Positions 958 through 21,224 of a stretch of 38,965 nucleotides of DNA are shown piece by piece. The DNA is from Armatimonadota bacterium (GTDB lineage: Bacteria; Armatimonadota; UBA5829), in NCBI GenBank assembly GCA_026392045.1, contig JAPLCU010000055.1, positions 1 to 38,965 on the forward strand. The letters are read 5' to 3'. A model generated the notes under the pieces. That model searched no databases and had not been told where the DNA came from. It saw only the letters and a program-made list of their open reading frames with translations. Both the position numbers and the translations under genes were made by a program. Each line of letters opens with the position of its first letter. Position 1 is the stretch's first letter.

Positions 958-2247
958 TCAGCTATCTATCACGGCTTGCGCGGCGGCGCGGCCTGAGCGG
1001 ACGGCGCTCTCGATGGTGGCGGGCCAAGGCGTGTCTGTCCAATCTCCCGCCAAAAATATATTAGAAAGAGGCGTAATATTGCCGGGCCTTGCGGATTTGG
1101 ACGAGGCAGTTGTCGAAAATGTCGCCCTGGGGGCTCTGTAAACCAATGCCCGCTTGAGTATAGACTTACTCACCGGAGGCGACGCCTTTTTCGCTGCCCG
1201 CAGCGCCAGCTCAACCAGTTCACGCTTTGACCTGCCCACGATGTTATCCGCCGCACTAGCCACAGCATGTAAACAAGCAAACTCCAGCCCAAAATCATTG
1301 GTCTTATTGAACACCCAGCCGAAAGGCTCGCCAGCTATGCATGCGCAATCAAAATCGGGGTCGATATAATCAAGAAACAGATGCACCCCCACAATCGGTC
1401 GCCAGTGCAAACGATCTCCGCCAAATTGTTCCAGACCCATTTGCTCAAGAGACCACGGCGGCACTGCCATCACGTAAGCATCACTGGAGATCGTTTTCCC
1501 GCTGTTCAATGTCAATGATCTCACGCGTTTACCGGATGTGTTGACTCTGGCTACCTTGGTTTCGAGTCTCGTTTTGCATCCTCGTTTTGTCAGATAACGC
1601 AGCGCAGGCGCCTCCACGATTTCAGTAAGAGGCGCGGAAGGCACACCCAGCCGATAACCGTCCCTGCTTTCCATGAAAACCTTTAGGAGCAACATTCTAA
1701 CGCTCTCGGCGGAAGCCGAGGCTGCGCATTCATTCAAAGCCGAAATAGTAATAGGCTCCACAAGCCTCTTGATCACACTATCCGGGCACGAAAGCGATTG
1801 CAAATATTCCCTGGCGCTGCAATTTTCGCCTGGCTCGTGCGAAGAAAGCGCAGTTAAAGCGCGGGCAAGGCCGATCTTTTCCCTCACAGACAAATAATTC
1901 GTGGCGACGATAGATGGAACCAGATGAAGTGGCACGGGTAGAGGCGAATCTTTTACTCTCAACACCCTTTCGTCGCTTCCTATGATTGTGATGCTATCCT
2001 GAAAACGCACACGACCGATAGACCCGATTTTTTCGAGGAATCCCGCAGCGGCATCGCAGCAGCCCAGCAAAACATGCTGGCAGTTGTCCAGCATTGCGCC
2101 GCTGTCTTTATCACGGAACGAATAAGCTCTGCCGCCCAGATGCTTTTTCGCCTCCAGCAGAATGACCTCTATCCCGGCATCAGCCAGATCACAGGCACAT
2201 GCGAGGCCGGCGATCCCTCCGCCTACAATTGTGACTTGCGTAGATAT
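958..2247 (-). CDS. hpnE: HpnE, hydroxysqualene dehydroxylase (FAD-dependent), with no canonical start codon
   Basis: This is the last gene of the squalene operon. The family reduces hydroxysqualene to squalene with FAD. The N-terminus reads TIVGGGIAGLACACDLADAG and then an acidic residue ending the second strand, the Rossmann FAD-binding motif. The C-terminus has AGDWTDTPWPATIESAV, the usual flavin amine-oxidase closing motif. With the N-terminus the protein is about 429 aa, normal for the family. The first in-frame ATG (2094) would delete the FAD motif. An in-frame TAG at 2260-2262 is followed by AGGAGG (2254-2259), CCG, ATC and ATA. No ATG, GTG or TTG lies between that stop and the FAD motif. 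I place the start at ATA (2245-2247), 6 nt after AGGAGG. The gene overlaps the 3' end of hpnD by 25 nt, so coupled translation is likely. Family call is strong; the exact start is uncertain. Confidence 0.85.
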   Translation of the reverse strand: MSTQVTIVGGGIAGLACACDLADAGIEVILLEAKKHLGGRAYSFRDKDSGAMLDNCQHVLLGCCDAAAGFLEKIGSIGRVRFQDSITIIGSDERVLRVKDSPLPVPLHLVPSIVATNYLSVREKIGLARALTALSSHEPGENCSAREYLQSLSCPDSVIKRLVEPITISALNECAASASAESVRMLLLKVFMESRDGYRLGVPSAPLTEIVEAPALRYLTKRGCKTRLETKVARVNTSGKRVRSLTLNSGKTISSDAYVMAVPPWSLEQMGLEQFGGDRLHWRPIVGVHLFLDYIDPDFDCACIAGEPFGWVFNKTNDFGLEFACLHAVASAADNIVGRSKRELVELALRAAKKASPPVSKSILKRALVYRAPRATFSTTASSKSARPGNITPLSNIFLAGDWTDTPWPATIESAVRSGRAAAQAVIDS

Positions 2248-3125
2248 GATCGGCCTCCTCTAAACCTGGACGTCACCAGCGCTTTTGCCGCTATCGACAG
2301 CTTTCTTGCTTTTGATATGGAAACGTAATTGGTCAAGACATCGCTCGGGCTGCGCTGAATTCTTTTTAGAATGCTCGAATAGATCTCTATCATCGCGCTA
2401 AGCCCCGGTCTGCCGGATGAATCCACCAGCGGCAGCAGCGGACGAGCGGCATTGTAATAATCCTGAGCGCGGCTCGCCTCAAACTTCATCAGCCGCAGAA
2501 AACGTTCATCACTGACACCATTTGCAAGGTCATCCGCGCTGTAGCCAAACGCCCACAGGTCTTCTTCTGGGATATAAACCCTGCCATTGGAAGCGTCCTC
2601 GCGAACGTCGCGCAAAATATTCGTAATCTGAAACGCTATCCCGCAAAACTCCGCATATTTTTGCGCTGCGGGAGAATTGAACCCGAAGATATGAATGCAC
2701 ACCAATCCCACCACCGATGCCACTTTATAGCAATATCTATATAGGTCATCAAAGCTCTGATATCGGTTTATGCGCAGGTCCATAGACGCTCCATCTATGA
2801 GCTGATGAAAGTATTCCGCTGGTATGTCGAACTTACGCAGGGTATCGTGGAACGCTGGAAGAATCAAACTATCGCTGTAGTCCCCGTTCGCTGTCCTATC
2901 CAACGACTCGCCCCACTTTGCAAGCATTCGCTCACGGTCACCAGCCACGGCAGGGTCATCGGCGATGTCGTCACAATATCGCATAAACGCATAAACGGCG
3001 CACATAGCGTCGCTTTTTTCGCGTGGAAGCACCATAAATGAGTAATAGAAGTTCTTCGCTCGCTTTCTGGATACTTCACGGCAATAGCGGTAAGACAGTT
3101 CGAGTTCACTCGATTTACTGATCAT
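2223..3125 (-). CDS. hpnD: HpnD, presqualene diphosphate synthase
   Basis: A trans-isoprenyl diphosphate synthase of the squalene/phytoene synthase family, 300 aa, the usual length. The family member HpnD condenses two farnesyl diphosphates to presqualene diphosphate. Both aspartate-rich Mg-diphosphate motifs are intact: YCDDIADD (about residues 50-57) and RDVRED followed by ASNGRVYIPEEDL (about 172-190). The ATG at 3125 follows AAGGGGATAAG, an acceptable ribosome site. It starts 13 nt after the hpnC stop, and its 3' end overlaps hpnE. The hpnC-hpnD-hpnE order separates it from a plain phytoene synthase. I assign HpnD rather than HpnC from the NGRVYIPEEDL context and gene order. Confidence 0.9.
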   Translation of the reverse strand: MISKSSELELSYRYCREVSRKRAKNFYYSFMVLPREKSDAMCAVYAFMRYCDDIADDPAVAGDRERMLAKWGESLDRTANGDYSDSLILPAFHDTLRKFDIPAEYFHQLIDGASMDLRINRYQSFDDLYRYCYKVASVVGLVCIHIFGFNSPAAQKYAEFCGIAFQITNILRDVREDASNGRVYIPEEDLWAFGYSADDLANGVSDERFLRLMKFEASRAQDYYNAARPLLPLVDSSGRPGLSAMIEIYSSILKRIQRSPSDVLTNYVSISKARKLSIAAKALVTSRFRGGRSYLRKSQL

Positions 3126-3138
3126 CTTATCCCCTTCA

Positions 3139-4056
3139 CTATCCTCTGCGCAGCGAACCGCCGAGCCTCTTTATACACCAAAATGCCATCATCATCGCCT
3201 TTCTCGACTTTGACACAGTCACTCTGCTTCTGAATACATCAAAGTTCTGGCGTTCGATGGATTGAAGGAGGGCCAGGCCTCCATTGGAGAAGAGTTCCAC
3301 ATCCGCAGCCGCGCTGCCGCCAATCATCGCAGGCAAAGATGCTCCGTGCTCAAAGAATTCCCTGGTTCTATTTATCTCAAACCGCATCAAATGCACAAAA
3401 CCGGCGTTCAAAATGTGGTTTCGCAACTCAGCTTCGGTATAGCCAAATCTCTGCATGTCTTCCTGAGGAACGTATATCCGACCGCGCAGGTAATCCGAGC
3501 CTATGTCCTGCCAGAAATTAGCGAGCTGAAGCGCGGAGCAGGTGTAATCCGACAGCTGCTGCCTGGTTTCGTCCCTATAACCCAACAAGCAAAGAAATAA
3601 CCTGCCCACAGGATTTGCTGATCGTGAGCAATAATGCAGAAGCTGCTCGAAAGTTGCGTAGCGTGTCACGTGCTGATCCTGAACAAACGCATCTATGAGG
3701 TCTTCAAATGGCTGCATCGGCAGGTCATAGCGATCTATTGTCTCAGCCAACGCCTGAAACACCGATTGCCGCGGCTTGCATTCATAGCAACTATGCAGCT
3801 CTTCTCTCCACCAATCAAGCAGCCGCAGCGACAGCTCGCGATCATTGGTTTCATCGGCAAGATCATCACAAATGCGGCAATATGCGTAGATGTTGAACAC
3901 ATGTTTGCGAAGCTCGCGGGGCAGCAGTATCGAGCCTACGGTAAAGTTCTCATAGTGATGTTTTGCCAATAGCGCGCATGCTTGCTCAGGCGAATGCGTC
4001 TTGAAATCGAACCCATCCAAAACTGGCACAGCCGCCGCATGGCCAAACTTGCTCAT
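3139..4056 (-). CDS. hpnC: HpnC, hydroxysqualene synthase
   Basis: First gene of the squalene operon. HpnC converts presqualene diphosphate to hydroxysqualene. It is a paralogue of the next gene and carries ICDDLADE (about residues 62-69) and FWQDIGSD followed by RGRIYVPQED (about 181-200), the two aspartate-rich motifs. The frame is open further upstream. I choose the ATG at 4056 because GGGAGG lies 5 nt before it and the preceding residues do not look like the family. This gives 305 aa, close to typical. Downstream hpnD begins 13 nt after the stop. Whether the squalene goes to hopanoids, C30 carotenoids or sterols cannot be told: no cyclase or desaturase is in view. Confidence 0.88.
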   Translation of the reverse strand: MSKFGHAAAVPVLDGFDFKTHSPEQACALLAKHHYENFTVGSILLPRELRKHVFNIYAYCRICDDLADETNDRELSLRLLDWWREELHSCYECKPRQSVFQALAETIDRYDLPMQPFEDLIDAFVQDQHVTRYATFEQLLHYCSRSANPVGRLFLCLLGYRDETRQQLSDYTCSALQLANFWQDIGSDYLRGRIYVPQEDMQRFGYTEAELRNHILNAGFVHLMRFEINRTREFFEHGASLPAMIGGSAAADVELFSNGGLALLQSIERQNFDVFRSRVTVSKSRKAMMMAFWCIKRLGGSLRRG

Positions 4057-4090
4057 GTATTCCTCCCGATCTTCCACATTCTGACCTCTA

Positions 4091-4119
4091 TTTATACGTT
4101 GTCCATAATTTGCCCGTAA
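4091..4119 (-). promoter_or_regulatory. Possible promoter of the hpnCDE operon
   Basis: Minus strand: TATAAA (4091-4096) is preceded at 17 bp by TTACGG (4114-4119). The -10 is good, the -35 poor. It would give a leader of about 30 nt before the hpnC ATG. Confidence 0.3.
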
Positions 4120-4245
4120 TACAAAAAATCTAACCCAGGTTGCTTCGTTATCCTGATGCCAAAGCCGACACCACTCAGCCAAACCCCCAAATCTCAGCGA
4201 TTCAGGAGCTCAAACCCGCCACTCTATTCCCTGTACCCCTAATAT

Positions 4246-7949: not shown

Positions 7950-8104
7950 TCTCCACTCTCCGCTTTCCACTACCCTTCACCCGGGTGGTTTGCAAGCAGA
8001 GAATGTCTGGGAATATGAAATGATGGCAATAATGCCGCCTATGATATTGCGGCAGTGGTTCCGGGCTCTGGGCTCTTCACTCTCCGCTATTCAAGGAAGT
8101 GTTT

Positions 8105-10030
8105 ATGCATGATAAGTTGCTTGATCGCCTTGATTTGCCCCGAGACCTGAGAAAACTCTCAATGGCCGACACGCGGCGTCTCGCTCGGGAAATCAGGGAT
8201 TTAATAGTCGATGTTGTGAGTAATAATGGTGGTCATCTTGCGCCGTCGCTTGGGGTGGTGGAGCTGAGTATTGCCATGCTTGCGGTTATGGATGTGCCAA
8301 AGGACAAGATTATATGGGATGTCGGTCACCAATGCTACGCCTATAAAATCTTAACTGGCCGCCGTGAAGCATTTCATACGCTGCGCCAAGCGGGCGGCAT
8401 AAGCGGTTTCCCCAAGCCCGGCGAAAGCCAATGCGATGCGTTCGCCACCGGCCACGCGAGCACGTCCATATCTGCGGCGCTGGGCATTGCTCAAGGCAGG
8501 GATCTGGCGGGAGAGAATTACGCCGTGACAGCAGTAATAGGAGATGGCGCGCTCGGAGGAGGTATGGCCTGGGAAGCGATTAACAACGCTGGGGCCTCCC
8601 GCGCAAACCTTCTCGTCATATTGAACGACAATCGCATGTCGATTTCCATCAGCATCGGGGCCCTTGCCGCTCACATCGCCCGCCTGAGGACAATGCCTTT
8701 CTACCGCAGCGTGGAAAACGGCGCTGAGAGCTTTTTCAAGAGAATGCCATTGGGCGGCGGGCTGATCCGCAAGACTGCGCAGGCGCTCAAACGCAGTCTC
8801 ACAAGCTGGATATCACCTACCAGCGGCACAATTTTTGAGGCTTTGGGCTTTGAATACCTCGGTCCGATAGACGGCCACGACGTCGCTCAGTTGAAGCACT
8901 TCATAACCCAGGCGCGATCCATAAAAGGCCCTGTTTTGCTCCACGTGGTCACCACCAAGGGCAAAGGCTACCATCGCGCTGAAAATAATGCCCGCCAATA
9001 CCACGGCGTGGCCCCGTTCAATTCCAGCAATGGCAAGGCCTCCAGTAACGGCGGACGCACATACACGGATGTTTTCGGCAAAACACTCTGCGAACTTGCC
9101 CGGCGCGACCCAAAGATCGTCGCAATCACCGCGGCTATGCCGGACGGCACCGGGCTCAACCGTTTTGCCCGAAAGTTTCCAACGCGCTTCTTCAACGTGG
9201 GAATAGCGGAGGAGCATGCCGTCACGTTCGCAGCTGGCTTGGCATCCGCTGGCGCGAAGCCTGTCGTTGCCATTTATTCCACGTTCCTGCAGCGCGCTTA
9301 TGATCAGATAATTCATGATGTCTGTCTGCAAAATCTGCCGGTGGTTTTCATGCTGGACAGAGCGGGAATAGTAGGGGAAGATGGGCCGACCCACCATGGC
9401 ATCTTTGATCTATCTTACCTGCGGCACATTCCCAATCTGACGGTAATGGCTCCCAGGGACGCTAGCGAACTCAGCGATATGCTTTTCACTGCTGTGAAAA
9501 TGGACTCGCCAGTTGCGATCCGTTACCCGCGCGGCGAAGCCGTAGGAAAAAGGCGCGCCCCAATTAAGGAACTGCCTGTGGCAAAATCCGAGCTTCTGCG
9601 AAACGGCACAGACGCCGCCATCATCGCAATCGGCACAGCCGCAAACAGCGCATTGGATGCGGCCATAGAGCTTGAAAAACTGGGTGTGCAAGTGCGCGTG
9701 ATAAACGCGCGGTTCGTGAAACCATTGGATGAAGCCGCAATTATCTCTGCCGCATCAGAGTGCGACGCGCTTGTGCTCGTTGAAGAAAACACCATTCAGG
9801 GAGGTTTTGCGAGTGCTGTGCTGGAGTGTTTGGCTCGAAATCGGCTTCTTAAACAAAATCTGGAAATAGTCGCTTTGCCGGACAGCTTCATAAGCCACGG
9901 CAGAGCGTCGGATATTCGATCACAATATGGGCTCAATGCTAAAGGCATAGTGGACGCGGTCAGCCGAGCGATTACAGGAAAAGAGCCTATAGAATCGGGA
10001 GATAATATTGTCATCCATCAGAGCATCTGA
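8105..10030 (+). CDS. dxs: 1-deoxy-D-xylulose-5-phosphate synthase
   Basis: Dxs condenses pyruvate and glyceraldehyde 3-phosphate in the first step of the MEP isoprenoid pathway, using thiamine diphosphate. At 641 aa it has the usual length. NNGGHLAPS (His about 44), WDVGHQ, the ThDP motif GDGALGGGMAWEAINNAG to NDN (about 146-176), the transketolase central motif GIAEEHAVTFAAGLA and the C-terminal transketolase domain are all present. I choose the ATG at 8105 over a GTG at 8099 because AGGAAG lies about 6 nt before it. The 3' end overlaps fni by 23 nt, so the two are co-translated. No clear promoter was found in the repeat-rich spacer upstream. Confidence 0.95.
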   Translation: MHDKLLDRLDLPRDLRKLSMADTRRLAREIRDLIVDVVSNNGGHLAPSLGVVELSIAMLAVMDVPKDKIIWDVGHQCYAYKILTGRREAFHTLRQAGGISGFPKPGESQCDAFATGHASTSISAALGIAQGRDLAGENYAVTAVIGDGALGGGMAWEAINNAGASRANLLVILNDNRMSISISIGALAAHIARLRTMPFYRSVENGAESFFKRMPLGGGLIRKTAQALKRSLTSWISPTSGTIFEALGFEYLGPIDGHDVAQLKHFITQARSIKGPVLLHVVTTKGKGYHRAENNARQYHGVAPFNSSNGKASSNGGRTYTDVFGKTLCELARRDPKIVAITAAMPDGTGLNRFARKFPTRFFNVGIAEEHAVTFAAGLASAGAKPVVAIYSTFLQRAYDQIIHDVCLQNLPVVFMLDRAGIVGEDGPTHHGIFDLSYLRHIPNLTVMAPRDASELSDMLFTAVKMDSPVAIRYPRGEAVGKRRAPIKELPVAKSELLRNGTDAAIIAIGTAANSALDAAIELEKLGVQVRVINARFVKPLDEAAIISAASECDALVLVEENTIQGGFASAVLECLARNRLLKQNLEIVALPDSFISHGRASDIRSQYGLNAKGIVDAVSRAITGKEPIESGDNIVIHQSI

Positions 10031-11057
10031 GACGAGCCGCCGGAAGATAGACCATGTCAACGCCGCCTTGCATGAAGATGTCGGCTACCACACGCGCACG
10101 GCTGGGTTCGAGCGCTATGACCTGGTCTACCAAGCCCTACCGGAAATAGGCAGAGCGGATATTGACACATCAACCACTCTCTTCGGGCGCCGACTTGCAA
10201 TGCCTTTCATAATCTCGCCGATCACAGGAGGCACACCTGAAGCGGCAGCTATCAACCGCACGCTTGCGCAAGCCGCTGCGCGATTTGGCGTGGCGATGGG
10301 GGTGGGCAGTCAGCGTGCGGCGCTCGAAGACCCGTCGCTCGAATATACATACCGCGTGCGCGATATTGCGCCGGATATTTTGCTCTTTGCCAACCTTGGA
10401 GCTGTTCAACTCAATTATGGCCACGGGGTAGAGAGCTGCGTCCGCGCGGTCGAAATGATCGAAGCCGACGCCCTCATACTGCATCTAAACCCATTGCAGG
10501 AGTCCATCCAATCTCAAGGCGACACCGATTTTCGCAACCTCGCGCACAAGATCAGCGAGGTGCGGGAGGCAATCAATGTGCCGGTGATGGTCAAAGAGGT
10601 TGGGCATGGCATATCTGAACGGGCGGCAAGGCTGTTGGTGGATGCCGGGGTCGACGCCATAGACGTGGCAGGCGCGGGCGGGACCTCATGGGCAAAAGTC
10701 GAGAGTTTTTGTGCGGTCGATACCAGCCAGCGCGCTCTCGGGTCGATGCTGGGGGAGTGGGGTATTTCAACGGTCGATAGCCTGCTCGCAGTTCGCGCCA
10801 TTTCGCCTCACATAACCGTCATAGCCAGCGGCGGGGTGCGCACCGGCGAGGATATAGCCAAATCCATCGCCCTCGGAGCCAACGCAGCAGCAATGGCTCT
10901 CCCTATGCTGCAATGCGCATCACTCGGACGCAACGCCCTATTCGCAAAAATCGCGCAGATTCAGGAAGAGCTTGCCACCATTATGTTTTGCACTGGGTCG
11001 AAAAGTATTGAAGAACTGAAAAGCGCCTGCATAGATACTATCTCTACGGCAAAATAA
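10008..11057 (+). CDS. fni: Type 2 isopentenyl-diphosphate isomerase
   Basis: An FMN- and NADPH-dependent isomerase that interconverts isopentenyl and dimethylallyl diphosphate; 349 aa, typical of the type 2 family. Visible family motifs include RKIDHV near the N-terminus, MPFIISPITGG, VGSQRAALED, HLNPLQE, KEVGHGIS and the FMN-phosphate site DVAGAGGTSWAKVE. It starts with TTG at 10008, 7 nt after GGGAG, inside the end of dxs. The dxs-fni pair makes the building blocks that the hpnCDE products 4 kb away consume. The last 14 bp overlap the convergent membrane-protein gene. Confidence 0.93.
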   Translation: MSSIRASETSRRKIDHVNAALHEDVGYHTRTAGFERYDLVYQALPEIGRADIDTSTTLFGRRLAMPFIISPITGGTPEAAAINRTLAQAAARFGVAMGVGSQRAALEDPSLEYTYRVRDIAPDILLFANLGAVQLNYGHGVESCVRAVEMIEADALILHLNPLQESIQSQGDTDFRNLAHKISEVREAINVPVMVKEVGHGISERAARLLVDAGVDAIDVAGAGGTSWAKVESFCAVDTSQRALGSMLGEWGISTVDSLLAVRAISPHITVIASGGVRTGEDIAKSIALGANAAAMALPMLQCASLGRNALFAKIAQIQEELATIMFCTGSKSIEELKSACIDTISTAK

Positions 11058-11592: not shown

Positions 11593-11948
11593 CTAGCCGA
11601 GCCCATCATCCTTTTCGCGTGAAAGGATATTGCTTAGTATGTTCACCAAACTCGGTAAATCAATCGTAACCGTGTCCCAAACGCGGTCAAGGTTAATATC
11701 GAAGTAAGCGTGAATCACCCGATTTCGCATTCCCACGATATCCTGCCACGGCAGTTCCAGACAAGCTGGCGCGTTTCCGCGCTCATTTTACTCGCTGCCT
11801 CACCGATAATCTCAATCGCTCTCACCAACGCGAAAGCAAGCATATTATTAGTATCTAAATCTTTGCGCTCACGCCCCTGCGCGAAGCCTATGGCTTCCTG
11901 AGCCGCATCCAGCATATAACACAAACGAATCCTATCATTACGCAGCAT
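11593..11948 (-). pseudogene. hepT: HepT-type HEPN toxin, frameshifted
   Basis: Read in two frames, this is a complete HepT-like HEPN protein. HepT proteins are RNases of MntA/HepT toxin-antitoxin pairs. The first frame gives MLRNDRIRLCYMLDAA through ALVRAIEIIGEAASKMSAET and then leaves the family at about 11752. The next frame continues with LELPWQDIVGMRNRVIHAYF and ends at a TAG at 11593-11595. The R-x4-H catalytic motif (RNRVIH) is therefore cut off from the N-terminus by an apparent loss of one base. If the read is right, the toxin is dead; the alternative is a sequence error. The ATG at 11948 overlaps the 3' end of mntA by 11 nt, the usual arrangement. Confidence 0.8.
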
Positions 11949-12231
11949 ACTGCACCTCTGCCTCCGCGAGCACATCATCTCTGAAATATCGGCTCAAATC
12001 CTGGGCGGTGCGCAAGTCTGCTTTTCGACCGATTATCTCAGAAAGCTCGCTCTCCAAAGCAGCCATTCCAAGCAAACCGAGTCTTACATCCGGCTCGAAC
12101 TCCACCAACACATCCACGTCACTTTCCGGCCCAAAATCATTCCGCAACAATGAGCCAAAAAACGCGAGCTTACAAATATGATTCCGCCGACAATATTCTT
12201 CAATCGAAGAGCTATCCACGCTAATCCTCAT
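11938..12231 (-). CDS. mntA: MntA-like minimal nucleotidyltransferase (antitoxin)
   Basis: 97 aa with the minimal nucleotidyltransferase motif: FFGSLLRNDFGPESDVDVLV, i.e. G-S, ten residues, then D-x-D. In characterised MntA/HepT pairs the MntA enzyme AMPylates and neutralises the HEPN toxin. The start is the ATG at 12231 with GGGG 8 nt upstream; a TTG at 12246 is less likely. The gene lies directly upstream of, and overlaps, the hepT remnant. The pair may descend from a mobile toxin-antitoxin unit, but no transfer signature is visible. Confidence 0.82.
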   Translation of the reverse strand: MRISVDSSSIEEYCRRNHICKLAFFGSLLRNDFGPESDVDVLVEFEPDVRLGLLGMAALESELSEIIGRKADLRTAQDLSRYFRDDVLAEAEVQYAA

Positions 12232-12270
12232 TGGTTTACCCCGCAAAAGTTATATGCTTTCCTGTTTAGT

Positions 12271-12343: not shown

Positions 12344-13123
12344 TTAACCGACCTGTTTAGCCATTCGCACCGTTGTGCCGGATGTGAAATCAAAGCTTAC
12401 TTCATCCATAACGGCGTTCATGCAATGCACCCCGCGTCCACTCTCCGCAAACAATGCATCCTCGAATGATGGAATATCATCCAGGCAGAAACCGAGTCCG
12501 TCATCGCTTATAGATATGCAGATGCGCTCTGGGGTGGCAATACAGCTCACTGTGAACATTTCGTTCGAATCGCCGTTACTTCCATATTTGATAGCGTTCG
12601 TAATAGCCTCGCCCGCCCCCAGCACGATATCCGCTCTGTGGCATTTGCTGAAGCCAACAGACTCGGCTATGCGATCCACCCGATCACGCGCCTCGCGGAT
12701 GCTATTCAGAACTGATGCTAATGAGAATACATCAACTTCCCAGGTTTTGCTGATATGAGAACAGCTTTCGGGGCTACATGGATGGGTGCAACTATCATGA
12801 TGACAGAATATCTCGGTTAACTGAAGCTTTTCGAGCAGGTCTTTGACGGCGCTGCTGGCGCTTCGGAGATGCAGGCGTTTTCTGCGAACCTTAAAAACCC
12901 CCACGCTGCCCGCAAGGCCTTCCAAGGCAGCATTATCGATGCTCTCAAGCTCATCCAGATCCAAAGACACGCAACTGCGGTCTTCTTCTGCAAGCTTATC
13001 CAGCACACTCACAACTTTTGATATATTGGATCTATCGGCTCGTCCTCTCACGCTGATCGACGAGCGATGATCATTTTTGTCTATCCGTATACTAATAGGG
13101 GCCGCATCAATTACAGGGGCCAT
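12344..13123 (-). CDS. STAS domain fused to an anti-sigma-factor-type HATPase
   Basis: 259 aa. Residues about 10-105 are a STAS domain of the anti-sigma antagonist type. Residues about 135-259 are a GHKL HATPase of the RsbW/SpoIIAB class, with GEAITNAIKYG (N box), SDDGLGF (G1) and GRGVHCMNAV (G2). These domains usually sit on separate partner proteins of the partner-switching pathway; here they are fused. At the position where STAS antagonists carry the phosphorylated Ser, this protein has IDNAAL, so that switch is absent. The linker has four Cys and several His in about 17 residues (C107, C112, C116, C121; H108, H109, H114, H123), which suggests metal or redox sensing. A promoter at 13152-13180 favours the ATG at 13123 over a TTG at 13141. 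No sigma factor is in view. Confidence 0.8.
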   Translation of the reverse strand: MAPVIDAAPISIRIDKNDHRSSISVRGRADRSNISKVVSVLDKLAEEDRSCVSLDLDELESIDNAALEGLAGSVGVFKVRRKRLHLRSASSAVKDLLEKLQLTEIFCHHDSCTHPCSPESCSHISKTWEVDVFSLASVLNSIREARDRVDRIAESVGFSKCHRADIVLGAGEAITNAIKYGSNGDSNEMFTVSCIATPERICISISDDGLGFCLDDIPSFEDALFAESGRGVHCMNAVMDEVSFDFTSGTTVRMAKQVG

Positions 13124-13151
13124 GCCACATATACCTACCAATTAAATCGAT

Positions 13152-13274: not shown

Positions 13275-15503
13275 TCAGCTTCTGCACAAGTCAACGGTCC
13301 CATCGAAACCATTTACTATGATTCGCTGACCGTCAGTTACGATGCCCATTACGCCTTCGCAGCCTGTCACAGCGGGGATATTATAATCTTTCATAAACGC
13401 CTGATAGCTCATACACTCCAGGCAAGAGCCGCCCGTAACCAGGCCGGCAGCAACCCCCAAGAACGGCGTCCATGCCAGCCACGGCACATCGATCACCAAA
13501 ATATCCCCGGCCTCAATATCGCCTGCTTCTTCAATGCTGCGCACAATCTTCGCACGTCCGCTGATCACACCCGGGCCTGCGCCAAAACCTTTCATCAATC
13601 CATCTTTTGGGCTACTAATTGCGGATTTCGAATCCGCCGCCGCCATCCGACTCTCCAACCAATACTCATGCTTGCGCATCGCTATCTTTGCAACCATCGC
13701 AGACCGCTCATCGTCGGACTTTGTCTGGGAAATCGCCTTAATCTCGTCGATGGTCAGGTGAAACACATCTTCGCGCTGGGCAATCAGCCCATTTTTGCAC
13801 AATCTCCTGCCCATCTCCAGAGCTGCGAGTCTCATTGCTGTGCACGATAAGACAAATGTCTGCTCGCATTCGTTTCTCGCACAAAGCCAACCTCTGGCAG
13901 CTTGAACCATCTTTCGGAACTTTGTTTTATCTTCAGCCGCCATCCTGAGGCTCTCGAAGGACGCCTGCGCGGCTGATTCCTCCGCCTTACAATGCAGCGT
14001 GACAAGCGACGGCCTGTTGCCGCGCCTGGCAATCGCGCCGATCATCCGGAAAACGACATCTAAATCTTCAATCCAGCTCTTCCAGGATGCCGGGTCCCAC
14101 ATCTCTCCCGAATCCTTGAAAGAATAACCGTATTCACTAGCGAAGCTCTTAACTTCGGTCCGGTAAGACTTCCACCAAAGCTCATCCGCAAGCTTGCCGG
14201 TCTGTTCAGCGGTACTGAATCTATCTCCAAACTCCTGAAGCCGAGCGTCGCGCATGAAAGTCGGGCATGGCAGGCCGCCGATCAATCTGTCATACAGCGC
14301 GGCTCCATTTTCGATTCCGTTCAGCATCTTTCTGAGCATTTTGTTGAACTGCGCGCTTGGGCAGCGCATCTGGTCCATCCACTGTGCCGCCATCAACGAA
14401 ATATCGCCCGCCTCAGCCAGCAATTCAACCACATGGGCATAATCTTTTCTGGTCAAATCCTTGCCGATAATAGCAGCGGCCTTCGCGGAAAGCTCGGGCC
14501 ACGCCTCCTTGCGCCATTTCTCCAGCAATCGCTCCGCCGCAGGCTGCCAGCCCTTCGCGCCCTCCGGCACATCCTTCGCGCAGGCGCTGTATACGTGTCC
14601 GTTTTTCAACTGAACATTAGCATCTTCCCGCTGATTCGACCAAAACAGCGTTCTCGCCATAAACGAGACCGGCTGCCTACTCATTGGAATCAATTTTACA
14701 CTTTGCTCTTCAGCAGGCTTAACATTCACCGACATCGCATCCGCCTGCAGCGCCCAAAACCTGCCGCCCTCATATAGCCATTCAATTTCCACAGGGGACG
14801 AAATCACGCTCTCGGCCAGAATAGCTTGTTCAGCCAACCGCAGCACGCTGGATTCATCAATGGGAGCATTAGCCTCACGCTCAACCACCCGAAAATCTCT
14901 CAAATCTACCTTAAACCTCGCGTGACCCTCTGGCCGATCGCAAAGAACTACCACGCTCAGCGGGTCACCATTCGCAGGGTCCGCCGTAAAAACCTTGCCC
15001 CGTGCAGCGCTTCCAAGCATCTGCTGCACGATTATCGCCACGGCAGGCTCGGTGTTATCCGCCTCAATCCAAGCCGACGCCCAAATCTCCTTGATTGCAG
15101 CCTTAAGCGCGTCCTCACCGGAAACGTTCAAGCAGCTCAAACTGGGGGTGTGAGAATTCTGCTCGACAGCCGATGAACGCACCAGCAGATTTGGGCTGGC
15201 AATCCCGAGCTGAAGCGAAAGCCGATGGTAAGCGTCAGCAATGCTCGCCCAAATATCATTCGGGATTTCGGTGTTGAGGATTGCCGATCGAGTTGATTCA
15301 GGGGACTCTATAGAAGCAGCAACGTTGCGGACGCCGCTAGCCCAAATGTGAAAACTGTGAGCGTCCGCGCTTATGACAAAGCCTCGCGGCACGTCGTAAT
15401 GCGCCCCGATTAGCTTCGAGAGATTAATCGCCTTGCAGCCCGCTTTGCGGCTCTTTTGGGCATCCACAAGCGGTATGACAAATGAGATTTTTGAAGTTTT
15501 CAT
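13275..15503 (-). CDS. PEP-synthase/rifampicin-phosphotransferase-like protein with a degenerate active site
   Basis: 742 aa laid out like rifampicin phosphotransferase or a PEP synthase. It has an N-terminal PPDK-type ATP-binding domain (NLSKLIGAHYDVPRGFVIS, LVRSSAVEQ, VQQMLGSAARGKVFTADP, EIEWLYEGGRFWALQAD), a helical middle, and a C-terminal swivelling PEP-utiliser domain (ILVIDVPWLAWTPF to PAVTGCEGVM). The family catalyses phosphotransfer through a swivel-domain His in a GG-x2-SH-x2-IVARE motif. Here the aligned stretch is TGGSCLECMSYQAFMKDYNI, and the His position is Ser. The usual Q-x-RP at the end of the ATP domain is QADAM. It may be a non-catalytic relative or use another chemistry. 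A strong promoter lies just upstream of the ATG. Confidence 0.78.
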   Translation of the reverse strand: MKTSKISFVIPLVDAQKSRKAGCKAINLSKLIGAHYDVPRGFVISADAHSFHIWASGVRNVAASIESPESTRSAILNTEIPNDIWASIADAYHRLSLQLGIASPNLLVRSSAVEQNSHTPSLSCLNVSGEDALKAAIKEIWASAWIEADNTEPAVAIIVQQMLGSAARGKVFTADPANGDPLSVVVLCDRPEGHARFKVDLRDFRVVEREANAPIDESSVLRLAEQAILAESVISSPVEIEWLYEGGRFWALQADAMSVNVKPAEEQSVKLIPMSRQPVSFMARTLFWSNQREDANVQLKNGHVYSACAKDVPEGAKGWQPAAERLLEKWRKEAWPELSAKAAAIIGKDLTRKDYAHVVELLAEAGDISLMAAQWMDQMRCPSAQFNKMLRKMLNGIENGAALYDRLIGGLPCPTFMRDARLQEFGDRFSTAEQTGKLADELWWKSYRTEVKSFASEYGYSFKDSGEMWDPASWKSWIEDLDVVFRMIGAIARRGNRPSLVTLHCKAEESAAQASFESLRMAAEDKTKFRKMVQAARGWLCARNECEQTFVLSCTAMRLAALEMGRRLCKNGLIAQREDVFHLTIDEIKAISQTKSDDERSAMVAKIAMRKHEYWLESRMAAADSKSAISSPKDGLMKGFGAGPGVISGRAKIVRSIEEAGDIEAGDILVIDVPWLAWTPFLGVAAGLVTGGSCLECMSYQAFMKDYNIPAVTGCEGVMGIVTDGQRIIVNGFDGTVDLCRS

Positions 15504-19533: not shown

Positions 19534-20109
19534 CTACTTGCGGCGGAAGCTGAGGAGTTTAGCCGAGCCTGCAAGGCCAATCAGAGAACAAAGAGTCATA
19601 ATAGAAGACGGTTCCGGGACCATTGGAGTGACTGGGTCTGGCGCAGTTGCCATATATGTGATAGGGTCGAACCCAGTGTAATTCCAGGCATCCCATGTGC
19701 CGTTTACAAGGGTTCTGTCACTGGCGCCAGTAAACGAGCCTGACCAGCTTTCTCCATCAGTTGAGTTATAATAACTCCAACCCGGCCATAAACCAGTGGT
19801 GGCGCGCTTTGCCTGATTATTATAGGCGATATCAGATACGAAAATGCCATACGCAGGATCGATAGAATAGCTGAGCACCATGCCGATATTTGCAGAGTTT
19901 ATATCTACAATCATATCAGCGCCAGACTTTGTGCCTTCCCAGTTGTAACCGAACGCATAAGACTTTGATCCAAAATCCACAACAACTACAGCAGAATTGC
20001 TTCCACCGCCCACCCACTGCTCGATCTTCACGTCACCAAAATTGTAGGCATTCGCCGCGACCCCTGCAAACATCATTACCGGGATCAAAATCGCAATCAT
20101 TCTTTTCAT
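19534..20109 (-). CDS. PEP-CTERM surface protein, third gene of the cobalamin-riboswitch operon
   Basis: About 191 aa. Signal peptide MKRMIAILIPVMMFAGVAANA, then a domain with VGGGSNSAVVVVDFGSKSYA, FGYNWEG, SGADMIVDI and, near the end, GTWDAWNYTGFDP. It closes with a PEP-CTERM tail: VPEPSSIMTL, a helix and SFRRK. From memory, the (V)G-x-GSN-x-AV-x-VVDF ... W-x-x-x-(Y/F)-x-x-FDP pattern recurs in exported proteins of other phyla, sometimes near cobalamin-related genes; this needs a search. The ATG at 20109 is chosen because AAGGAG lies 6 nt upstream and a signal peptide begins there. It starts 29 nt after the preceding gene, so it is likely co-transcribed under the riboswitch. Confidence 0.8.
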   Translation of the reverse strand: MKRMIAILIPVMMFAGVAANAYNFGDVKIEQWVGGGSNSAVVVVDFGSKSYAFGYNWEGTKSGADMIVDINSANIGMVLSYSIDPAYGIFVSDIAYNNQAKRATTGLWPGWSYYNSTDGESWSGSFTGASDRTLVNGTWDAWNYTGFDPITYMATAPDPVTPMVPEPSSIMTLCSLIGLAGSAKLLSFRRK

Positions 20110-20138
20110 TTCTTTCTCCTTCTGATTATTCCGCGCCA

Positions 20139-21224
20139 TTACGGCGTCGGTTCGTTGATTATCTCCATGCAAGTCGCTTGAATTTCCCGCTCACCATTGA
20201 CAGTAGTCATCACCCCCTCCACATTAACTTTCTTATCGCGCTCCACTATCCTGCCAGTTACCTTTATAGCGAAGGGCATATTTTTAGTTTGCAAATAGCA
20301 GCAGTCACCAAAATCATCTGTACCTGCAGAGACTATCTGTTCCGTCAGAATCACTCTCGTTCCATCCGGCAAGCTCTTGGCCTGCCCGATGGAAATCGGT
20401 TCGATGGTGTGGCCGACCCTTGAAATCGCGTCCAGCTCGCCGCCATTGCCGGTGATTTTAATATACTTAATCCACTTTCGCCCTGCAGCGTTTACGGGTA
20501 AATTGAGCGAATCGAGGTTGAATGCCGTCCCGCCCCCCGAACTTTTATACATATCTATTGCATCTGCGGCATATTTGCTTATGAAGCTGGCCGTGGTCAG
20601 CGCGGGGTCAACGGGTTTGGTTAAATCCATCTCCGCACCCCAAGTGTCATTTATATAATCCCAGGCATAAGCTTGGGTCGGAGCGAAATCATCAGCATAC
20701 GGGCCAGTTGTGTATGTATACCAGGGGCCGTTGGCATCTTGACTGACGCTCACCACTGATTTCTCCCACCTGCCGCTGGCGGTTGATGATATCCTATAAG
20801 TCTCCATATTGGTGGTTGGAGTAATATAGATACCAGTGCTCCCGTTAAATGCCGCGTTGCCGAAAACTATGAAATCCATGCCATACCAATTGGATGGGTC
20901 ATCTTCGATAGGCGTTGCGAACACTGCCGTGAGCTCGCCGCCTGATTCGATGGTCGTGATTATCGGGCTTCCAGCCAAATCGGTGTTCCACGGCCCTGCC
21001 ACCAGGGAAGAGGCGAACACATTACCATTAGGCTCCTTAAACTTCAGCGTAGGTTTGCCCAACACCGCTAAAGCATCGTTATAGGGCGATTCCCCAAGGC
21101 CAACGGCATTAACGACATCCGACGCGAACATGTCTATTTCAGCGACAGCCGGGCCGACCGACGCAATAAATAAAATCGCAGTCGCTCCCGCCATGTATCT
21201 AACTCCTGCTCTATTTGAGATCAT
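20139..21224 (-). CDS. Exported surface protein with C-terminal OB-like module, second gene of the cobalamin-riboswitch operon
   Basis: About 361 aa. A signal peptide (n-region with Arg, then MAGATAILFIASVGPAVA) precedes a domain containing SPYNDALAVLGKP, ESGGELTAVFATPIEDDPSN, WYGMDFIVFGNAAFNGS and KWIKYIKITG. This general pattern (alignment of a GGS/GEL-TV-F strand, an F-G-x-D-x-x-x-FGN motif and a late W-x-K-Y-I-K-I-x-G) is one I associate with exported surface proteins of uncertain role. Residues from about 285 on resemble an OB-type accessory module (TRVILTEQIVSAG, YLQTKNMPFAIKVTGRIV, VNVEGVMTTVNGEREI), similar to the tail of the C39 peptidase. The ATG at 21224 overlaps the pseudopilin stop by 14 nt and gives the positive n-region; an ATG at 21194 has a better ribosome site. 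No enzymatic motif seen. Confidence 0.7.
   Translation of the reverse strand: MISNRAGVRYMAGATAILFIASVGPAVAEIDMFASDVVNAVGLGESPYNDALAVLGKPTLKFKEPNGNVFASSLVAGPWNTDLAGSPIITTIESGGELTAVFATPIEDDPSNWYGMDFIVFGNAAFNGSTGIYITPTTNMETYRISSTASGRWEKSVVSVSQDANGPWYTYTTGPYADDFAPTQAYAWDYINDTWGAEMDLTKPVDPALTTASFISKYAADAIDMYKSSGGGTAFNLDSLNLPVNAAGRKWIKYIKITGNGGELDAISRVGHTIEPISIGQAKSLPDGTRVILTEQIVSAGTDDFGDCCYLQTKNMPFAIKVTGRIVERDKKVNVEGVMTTVNGEREIQATCMEIINEPTP

Follow-up and report, generated by a model that had tools for sequence, protein, structure and literature searches.

A rifampin phosphotransferase-like protein lacking the carrier histidine in a lineage of Armatimonadota, and its possible role as input to a partner switch

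The gene at 13275-15503(-) of the window (the whole 38,965 nucleotide (nt) stretch that was analysed, contig JAPLCU010000055.1 of the Armatimonadota bacterium assembly GCA_026392045.1) is an open reading frame (ORF) of 742 aa with an ATG start. The window lies on contig 11 of a 3.55 Mb genome that is 98% complete. The encoded protein has the fold of rifampin phosphotransferase (RPH), but it lacks the swivel-domain histidine on which the phosphohistidine relay of these dikinases depends. We call it a pseudo-dikinase. The loss of the His is a lineage trait of the whole clade. Its fold family is a known one, but we do not count the protein among the RPH enzymes, since the His that defines them was looked for and is absent. 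The best reading of the evidence as a whole is an ATP-binding pseudo-dikinase that acts as the input to a partner switch, and we hold this reading to be as apt to prove right as wrong. The identity of the partner, a STAS-HATPase switch, we infer from gene order only.

A Pfam scan of the protein found PPDK_N at residues 21-186 (E 8e-25) and a PEP-utilizers domain at residues 664-735 (E 5e-5, 23.3 bits against a cut-off of 23.1). No match to the phosphoenolpyruvate (PEP)/pyruvate barrel was found by Pfam at an E of 0.01. The AlphaFold2 model, made with an input of 22 sequences, has a mean pLDDT of 87.8 and a pTM of 0.84. Its best full-length structural match is the Listeria rifampin phosphotransferase 5hv1 (Foldseek E 1.9e-32), with 692 residues aligned by VIA-align at a root-mean-square deviation of 15.9 Å. 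The single domains fit closely: the ATP-grasp part matches 5hv6 at 2.3 Å across 247 residues, and the swivel matches pyruvate kinase 2e28 at 2.3 Å and 2wqd at 2.0 Å, each across 107 residues. Set against the RPH fold, these fits indicate that the domain order is complete, as had been proposed from the sequence alone. An RPH-type middle domain can be aligned in the model instead of the PEP/pyruvate barrel, and the modelled order of ATP-grasp (residues 1-262, 14718-15503(-)), middle (residues 263-632, 13608-14717(-), similar to the RIF-binding domain) and C-terminal swivel (residues 633-742, 13278-13607(-)) is that of RPH, not that of PEP synthase. The protein scores 121.9 bits with the NCBIfam rifampin phosphotransferase model NF041857, under its cut-off of 999 bits.

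The phospho-His column of the window protein holds Ser699 (codon at 13407-13409(-)) and there is no His anywhere in residues 633-742, which bears out the replacement of the swivel His by Ser that the sequence-only reading had described. A one-residue insertion at the carrier site means that M, S or Y could occupy the column; none of these is His. In alignment A2 (22 rows) the column is His in 12/12 outgroup rows versus 0/9 clade rows with that region, which carry S, G, G, A, I, R, A, I and T, but the 12 outgroup rows were picked for their C-terminal-His architecture (three more were added for the tree), so that the 12/12 is partly by choice. A fairer count comes from a profile test on all 80 loci of the contig scan described below. 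His was found in 65 of the 71 non-clade loci, six of which gave no swivel match (65/65 with a detectable swivel), and in none of the eight clade loci with a swivel. The carrier His is absent from all 11 aligned clade C-termini. The C-terminal piece from one further genome (G014) likewise lacks it by eye; this piece and that of G010 are parts of genes at contig ends and not full-length rows. There is no conserved replacement nucleophile in the clade swivel. A catalytic His kept at a shifted position, named beforehand as the outcome that would speak against a loss, was looked for in the clade swivels and rejected: four of the 11 contain no His at all, and any His column is common to at most two rows, which are sister pairs.

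The clade was found in 13/291 Armatimonadota genomes with a profile of the orthologues, three candidates being scored per genome. These are 11 of the 15 genomes of the window's family and the two that were sampled in a sister family. No match came from a third family within the order (two genomes) in the profile search. Weaker, non-clade matches occur in 17 further Armatimonadota genomes (E up to 1e-30), and one genome (G007) holds a clade member together with a remote, His-bearing copy. A contig scan with the orthologue alignment yielded 140 loci, the best 80 of which were kept (9 clade and 71 non-clade). The contig scan with the single protein as query gave no match, and in the plasmid collection all relatives were remote, none spanning 80% of the query. 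All nine clade loci of the contig scan are in metagenome-assembled genomes (MAGs), six of them titled Armatimonadetes or Armatimonadota and three titled "bacterium". In a quick IQ-TREE phylogeny from which the His region was removed, the 11 clade rows lie on one side of one branch (SH-aLRT 99); the tree omits L035, which lacks a C-terminus. Among the His-bearing rows the nearest, L023 from G007, sits on a long branch and its placement is uncertain. The carrier trait needs three changes on the tree because two Armatimonadota RPH-like proteins, L015 and L019 (genomes G042 and G052), have Gln at the carrier position independently of the window clade.

Other catalytic residues were compared by setting the outgroup-conserved columns of A2 against residues tested in the enzyme RPH-Lm. 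Lys22 and Arg117 of RPH-Lm are ATP ligands according to the excerpted text of PMC4844700, and their equivalents, K24 and R109, are each kept in 10/10 clade rows. The equivalent of Thr136 is Ser or Thr in most clade rows, and the Mg-ligand Glu is kept in 7/10. The Q-x-R-P motif reads Q253-A-D255-A in the window protein, so the alteration of this motif noted from the sequence alone is real. Its Gln is found in 8/10 clade rows of A2. Its Arg, present in 12/12 outgroup rows, is found in 1/10 clade rows (3/12 by eye in alignment A1). In the GEAVVSG flap, both Val columns are gapped in 10/10 clade rows. At the acceptor pair, Arg666-Glu667 of RPH-Lm, which we located via the alignment, the Glu is present in 11/12 outgroup rows versus 0/9 clade rows (N544 in the window protein), and the Arg is kept in 6/9. 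With the carrier His and the acceptor Glu both absent, neither half of the relay survives, though the ATP-phosphate ligands are still in place. As the canonical phosphohistidine is missing throughout the clade, the known relay cannot run at that site. In the passages available from PMC12167813, H581Q in HpeH and a His-to-Ala change in a Bacillus RPH each abolish activity. We are confident that the old transfer chemistry is gone. The pseudo-dikinase probably still binds nucleotide, judging by the kept fold and by Lys24/Arg109.

Ratios of nonsynonymous to synonymous substitution (dN/dS, Nei-Gojobori) were calculated between relatives and do not describe the window copy, whose nearest relative is only 43% identical. 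The ratio is 0.14 between G002 and G007 (0.074 for the ATP-grasp, 0.181 for the middle and 0.167 for the swivel domain), 0.127 between G001 and G006, and 0.124 for the N-terminal part between G002 and G014; in the last two dS is at least 2, near saturation. The neighbouring genes measured gave 0.058-0.105. No in-frame stop occurs in any listed orthologue. Of the alignment columns, 102 are conserved in 10 or all 11 clade rows, and 34 of these are clade-specific, with the same residue in fewer than 35% of outgroup rows. H612 and W615 are present in 11/11 clade rows and 0/20 outside, and sit in a hinge signature, R-K-H-x-x-W-L-x-x-R (residues 610-619), near the end of the middle domain and directly before the swivel. 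Further clade-specific residues of the middle domain are Q423, D440, W474 and R493. Conservation within the clade is lowest in this domain, at 32%. The clade-wide His-less state, the dN/dS of 0.12-0.14 and the clade-specific conserved residues support the selected, non-canonical role put forward earlier. The word "degenerate", used in the same place, fits the loss of catalytic motifs and does not fit the conservation of the clade-specific residues.

The promoter is a better match to consensus than first described. It is a perfect sigma-70-type TTGACA-18-TATAAT, a 12/12 match at 15549-15520(-), and its -10 ends 16 nt before the ATG. We infer that a transcript starting 6-7 nt past the -10 would be nearly leaderless. 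In 9/12 orthologues the 110 nt before the start codon contain a 12-of-12 site, with the -10 ending 12-16 nt before the ATG. That stretch holds no perfect site in the other three (G013, G015, G017); in G015 one occurs farther upstream, and a perfect site is also present at the G010 gene fragment. A scan of 212 long ORFs from the fetched regions gave ten 12-of-12 hits, every one at a copy of the pseudo-dikinase gene; it missed the G006 copy owing to a long stop-to-stop frame. Genome-wide, the host genome (G000) has 27 perfect TTGACA-17/18-TATAAT sites versus none for the reversed control pattern. The promoter is therefore a member of a small, strong class and not unique to this gene.

The next gene downstream, at 12344-13141(-) (likely ATG at about 13123, by eye), encodes a fusion of STAS and HATPase_c_2 domains similar to RsbW/SpoIIAB. 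A sequence comparison with PDB structures picks out RsbW and SpoIIAB as its relatives. The model of this protein is mediocre (pLDDT 68.9); RsbW/SpoIIAB are among its highest-ranked Foldseek matches, with a Leptospira response regulator ranked above them. In the HATPase the N, G1 and G2 boxes are intact, with E178, N182, D213, G215, G217 and G235-R-G237 invariant in 6/6 rows. By eye, the linker between the two domains has several conserved Cys in most fused orthologues (FC...C...C...C), which could bind metal or sense redox state.

Neighbours were scored in 10 genomes of the family, G010 being excluded as a fragment. A gene of this type is immediately downstream of the pseudo-dikinase in six of them, from four genera: as a STAS-HATPase in G000, G003, G008 and G011 and as a HATPase only in G001 and G006. 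Roughly 0.1 such adjacencies would be expected from the numbers of HATPase_c_2 genes and rough genome sizes, a figure that gives no strict probability as the genomes are related. In G014, a SpoIIE gene directly adjoins the C-terminal piece, and in G002 and G007 a SpoIIE gene is separated from the pseudo-dikinase by one small gene. This small gene (L113:7913-8443 and L114:7414-8028) has hydrophobic stretches by eye, and the L113 copy has no Pfam match. In the sister family, G015 has overlapping STAS (68.8 bits) and HATPase (35 bits) genes, both over the Pfam cut-off, about 1 kb upstream and divergent, with only short ORFs in between. At 12 His-bearing relatives, 0/20 immediate or nearest neighbours are HATPase, STAS or SpoIIE by Pfam. 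This control covers 20 of 24 sides (L039 left and L067 right are without a gene, and L090 left and L095 left were not included). The same 20 neighbours include four TetR regulators and six MatE, MFS or ABC transporters, so the His-bearing relatives tend to drug-handling surroundings and the His-less clade does not. At the Lachnospiraceae-type loci L038, L044, L090 and L109, a MatE efflux gene comes after the His-bearing RPH-like gene, and a TetR gene precedes the RPH-like gene in all three that were scanned on that side (not L090), as in a drug-handling cassette. G003, G008 and G011 have a phosphofructokinase gene upstream of the pseudo-dikinase (L115, L116 and L111; Pfam on the L116 copy, with the same cluster in the others). 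The earlier suggestion of a role that is "perhaps regulatory" gains support from the STAS-HATPase and SpoIIE neighbours; that support is a matter of gene order.

Several observations weigh against a link to the switch. The STAS-HATPase gene does not directly adjoin the pseudo-dikinase in G002, G007, G013 or G014; the neighbours in G013 are peptidase and enolase genes, neither of a switch type. In G002, G007 and G013 the STAS-HATPase gene instead stays with the isoprenoid genes idi and dxs, which point at it where no pseudo-dikinase adjoins, and inherited synteny could thus account for some of the adjacency. In G017 the downstream neighbour is a pseudouridine synthase gene and the upstream side is cut by the contig end. 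G010 (67% complete) has a gene fragment and no orthologue-level STAS-HATPase match. A scan of the flanks of the 80 loci gave a HATPase or SpoIIE hit in 6/9 clade loci versus 0/71 others, with one weak STAS hit outside, but its hidden Markov models were trained on clade genes, so that the clade hits are by construction and the sensitivity is lower in distant phyla. The relatives, and with them the whole comparison, come from genomes that are metagenome-assembled or unnamed. In favour of the link, the four genomes of the family without the pseudo-dikinase (G004, G005, G009 and G012) also have no STAS-HATPase match, and have 0-1 HATPase_c_2 genes versus 7-22 elsewhere. This co-absence fits dependence, but it also fits a general loss of such switches. 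Two points concern the window itself. By eye, the window protein lacks five residues of the loop before the Thr136 equivalent, and ATP binding may be lost here specifically. Its STAS neighbour has Asn at the position after Asp69, which we take to correspond to the phospho-Ser, Ser58, of SpoIIAA, and this fusion may be atypical; the residue is Ser or Thr in 5/8 fusions and Ser in the separate STAS of G015.

The mechanism we propose starts from an RPH-type small-molecule dikinase that has lost the phosphohistidine relay and retained the fold and the ATP-phosphate ligands Lys24/Arg109. Expressed from a strong, conserved promoter, it would most probably act in stoichiometric fashion, as a nucleotide- or ligand-responsive input or as a scaffold of the STAS-HATPase (RsbW/SpoIIAB-like) switch, as the arrangement of genes across four genera suggests; a SpoIIE-type phosphatase may also take part. 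Once ATP, ADP or a small molecule binds in the old pocket of the middle domain, the arrangement of swivel and hinge would change, and a switch protein would thereby be freed or sequestered. The switch would then set transcription, perhaps (speculatively) of the adjoining isoprenoid/squalene genes. A broader claim, which we offer tentatively, is that throughout this lineage an RPH-type antibiotic/aromatic dikinase has become catalytically dead and now serves an anti-sigma partner switch as its nucleotide-gated input. It would then be a sensor of a new type for such switches, and the lineage would be a dedicated clade of pseudoenzymes within the PEP-synthase superfamily. If true, a large phosphotransfer machine was recruited as a regulator, dropping its relay and keeping its fold, ATP ligands and strong promoter, and the RsbW/SpoIIAB-like switches of a little-studied phylum have an unexpected input component. 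Among the literature matches listed (open-licence papers), we found no description of a His-less RPH/PEP-synthase clade or of a connection between such a clade and STAS/HATPase/SpoIIE genes.

The pseudo-dikinase could instead be a still-active ATP enzyme, in which the ATP-grasp domain uses ATP directly (as a kinase or for AMP or ligase transfer) on a substrate or on the switch protein with no phosphohistidine. The Lys22/Arg117 equivalents, kept in every clade row, would serve such an enzyme, and the ATP-grasp is the most constrained part of the protein by dN/dS (0.074). H52 and H612 are clade-invariant and are found outside the clade in 2/16 and 0/20 rows, respectively. The partial loss of the Mg ligand need not matter, as Glu297Ala RPH-Lm stayed active in the excerpted text of PMC4844700. 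However, the flap columns are gapped in all ten clade rows, the QxRP Arg is lost in 9/10, the Mg-ligand Glu survives in only seven, and the window protein is without part of the SFAG loop. We consider this reading unlikely. The "different transfer chemistry" raised in the sequence-only reading found no positive support, as the carrier position is unconserved and the acceptor-site Glu is lost; the kept ATP-phosphate ligands leave room for a different ATP chemistry.

Equally improbable, in our judgement, is a protein that binds or sequesters a small molecule for the isoprenoid/squalene cluster and has no role with the STAS-HATPase. The surroundings make it worth weighing. In the window, dxs (8099-10030(+)) and a type 2 isopentenyl-diphosphate isomerase gene, idi (10008-11057(+)), form a conserved isoprenoid neighbourhood that points at the STAS-HATPase gene with its pseudo-dikinase; the arrangement is the same in G003 and G011, so that the two genes adjoin the pair in three genera. 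In G014 the contig with the C-terminal piece has the STAS-HATPase gene immediately beyond dxs-idi. The window also has squalene synthesis genes at 958-4182(-), with HpnE and HpnC over the cut-off and an HpnD-like gene just under it, and the middle domain is the counterpart of the RPH substrate domain. However, G001, G006, G008 and G015 keep the switch neighbour with no dxs-idi alongside, so the pair is independent of the isoprenoid cluster, and the domain that would bind the molecule is the least conserved of the three.

It is very unlikely that the phospho-carrier has moved, for instance to His612 of the hinge, or that a different swivel domain provides it in trans. In favour of such a shift, H612 is present in 11/11 clade rows and none of 20 outside, and two-component dikinases exist (PMC12167813). 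However, H612 is on the helix before the swivel in the model, the acceptor Glu is lost, and the genome's sole other PEP-utilizers domain over the cut-off belongs to a normal PPDK. A His supplied in trans by another swivel protein was rejected on the search that found this PPDK; the third place in that search, with an E of 0.19, is below the cut-off. A decaying pseudogene, as which the several lost catalytic motifs and the extra loop deletions of the window copy might be read, is the least credible reading, given open frames in all listed orthologues, a dN/dS of 0.12-0.14 between relatives, and the conserved promoter and clade-specific residues, although the dN/dS figures come from relatives and not from the window copy.

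Other features of the window are as follows. An MNT-type nucleotidyltransferase gene and a HepT-like gene adjoin each other at 11715-12246(-), in the interval from idi to the STAS-HATPase gene, in a toxin-antitoxin-like arrangement, and the nucleotidyltransferase matches the PADLOC candidate family PDC-S09. An anti-phage system was considered and rejected, as there is no PADLOC hit for the pseudo-dikinase or its downstream neighbour. A short protein at 19534-20172(-) ends in what we take to be a PEP-CTERM-like C-terminal sorting signal (VPEPSS...).

The pseudo-dikinase resembles several known systems in part. It shares the ATP-grasp and swivel folds with PEP synthase and PPDK, but its swivel is C-terminal, it has no Pfam barrel match and it lacks the His; the host genome also has a separate, normal PPDK with the motif GGRTSHAA. 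The neighbouring STAS-HATPase fusion, and in some genomes the SpoIIE phosphatase, recall the RsbW/SpoIIAB-SpoIIAA-SpoIIE partner switches, whereas none of the partner-switching systems among the literature matches listed has an RPH-fold component. The two-component aromatic dikinases HpeHI and PpsAB have homologous ATP-grasp, middle and swivel domains (HpeI, 9goj, is among the fold hits), but the window protein is one chain and the essential His is absent. With RPH (RPH-Lm, PDB 5hv1/5fbs) it shares the three-domain order, a near full-length match in fold and the Lys22/Arg117 ATP ligands. Unlike RPH, the window protein lacks the carrier His, the acceptor Glu and the flap, is only about 18-20% identical and scores far under the NCBIfam cut-off. 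In the available passages of the cited work, the RPH-type dikinases are enzymes with an essential swivel His, and a His-less clade kept under selection stands in contrast to them.

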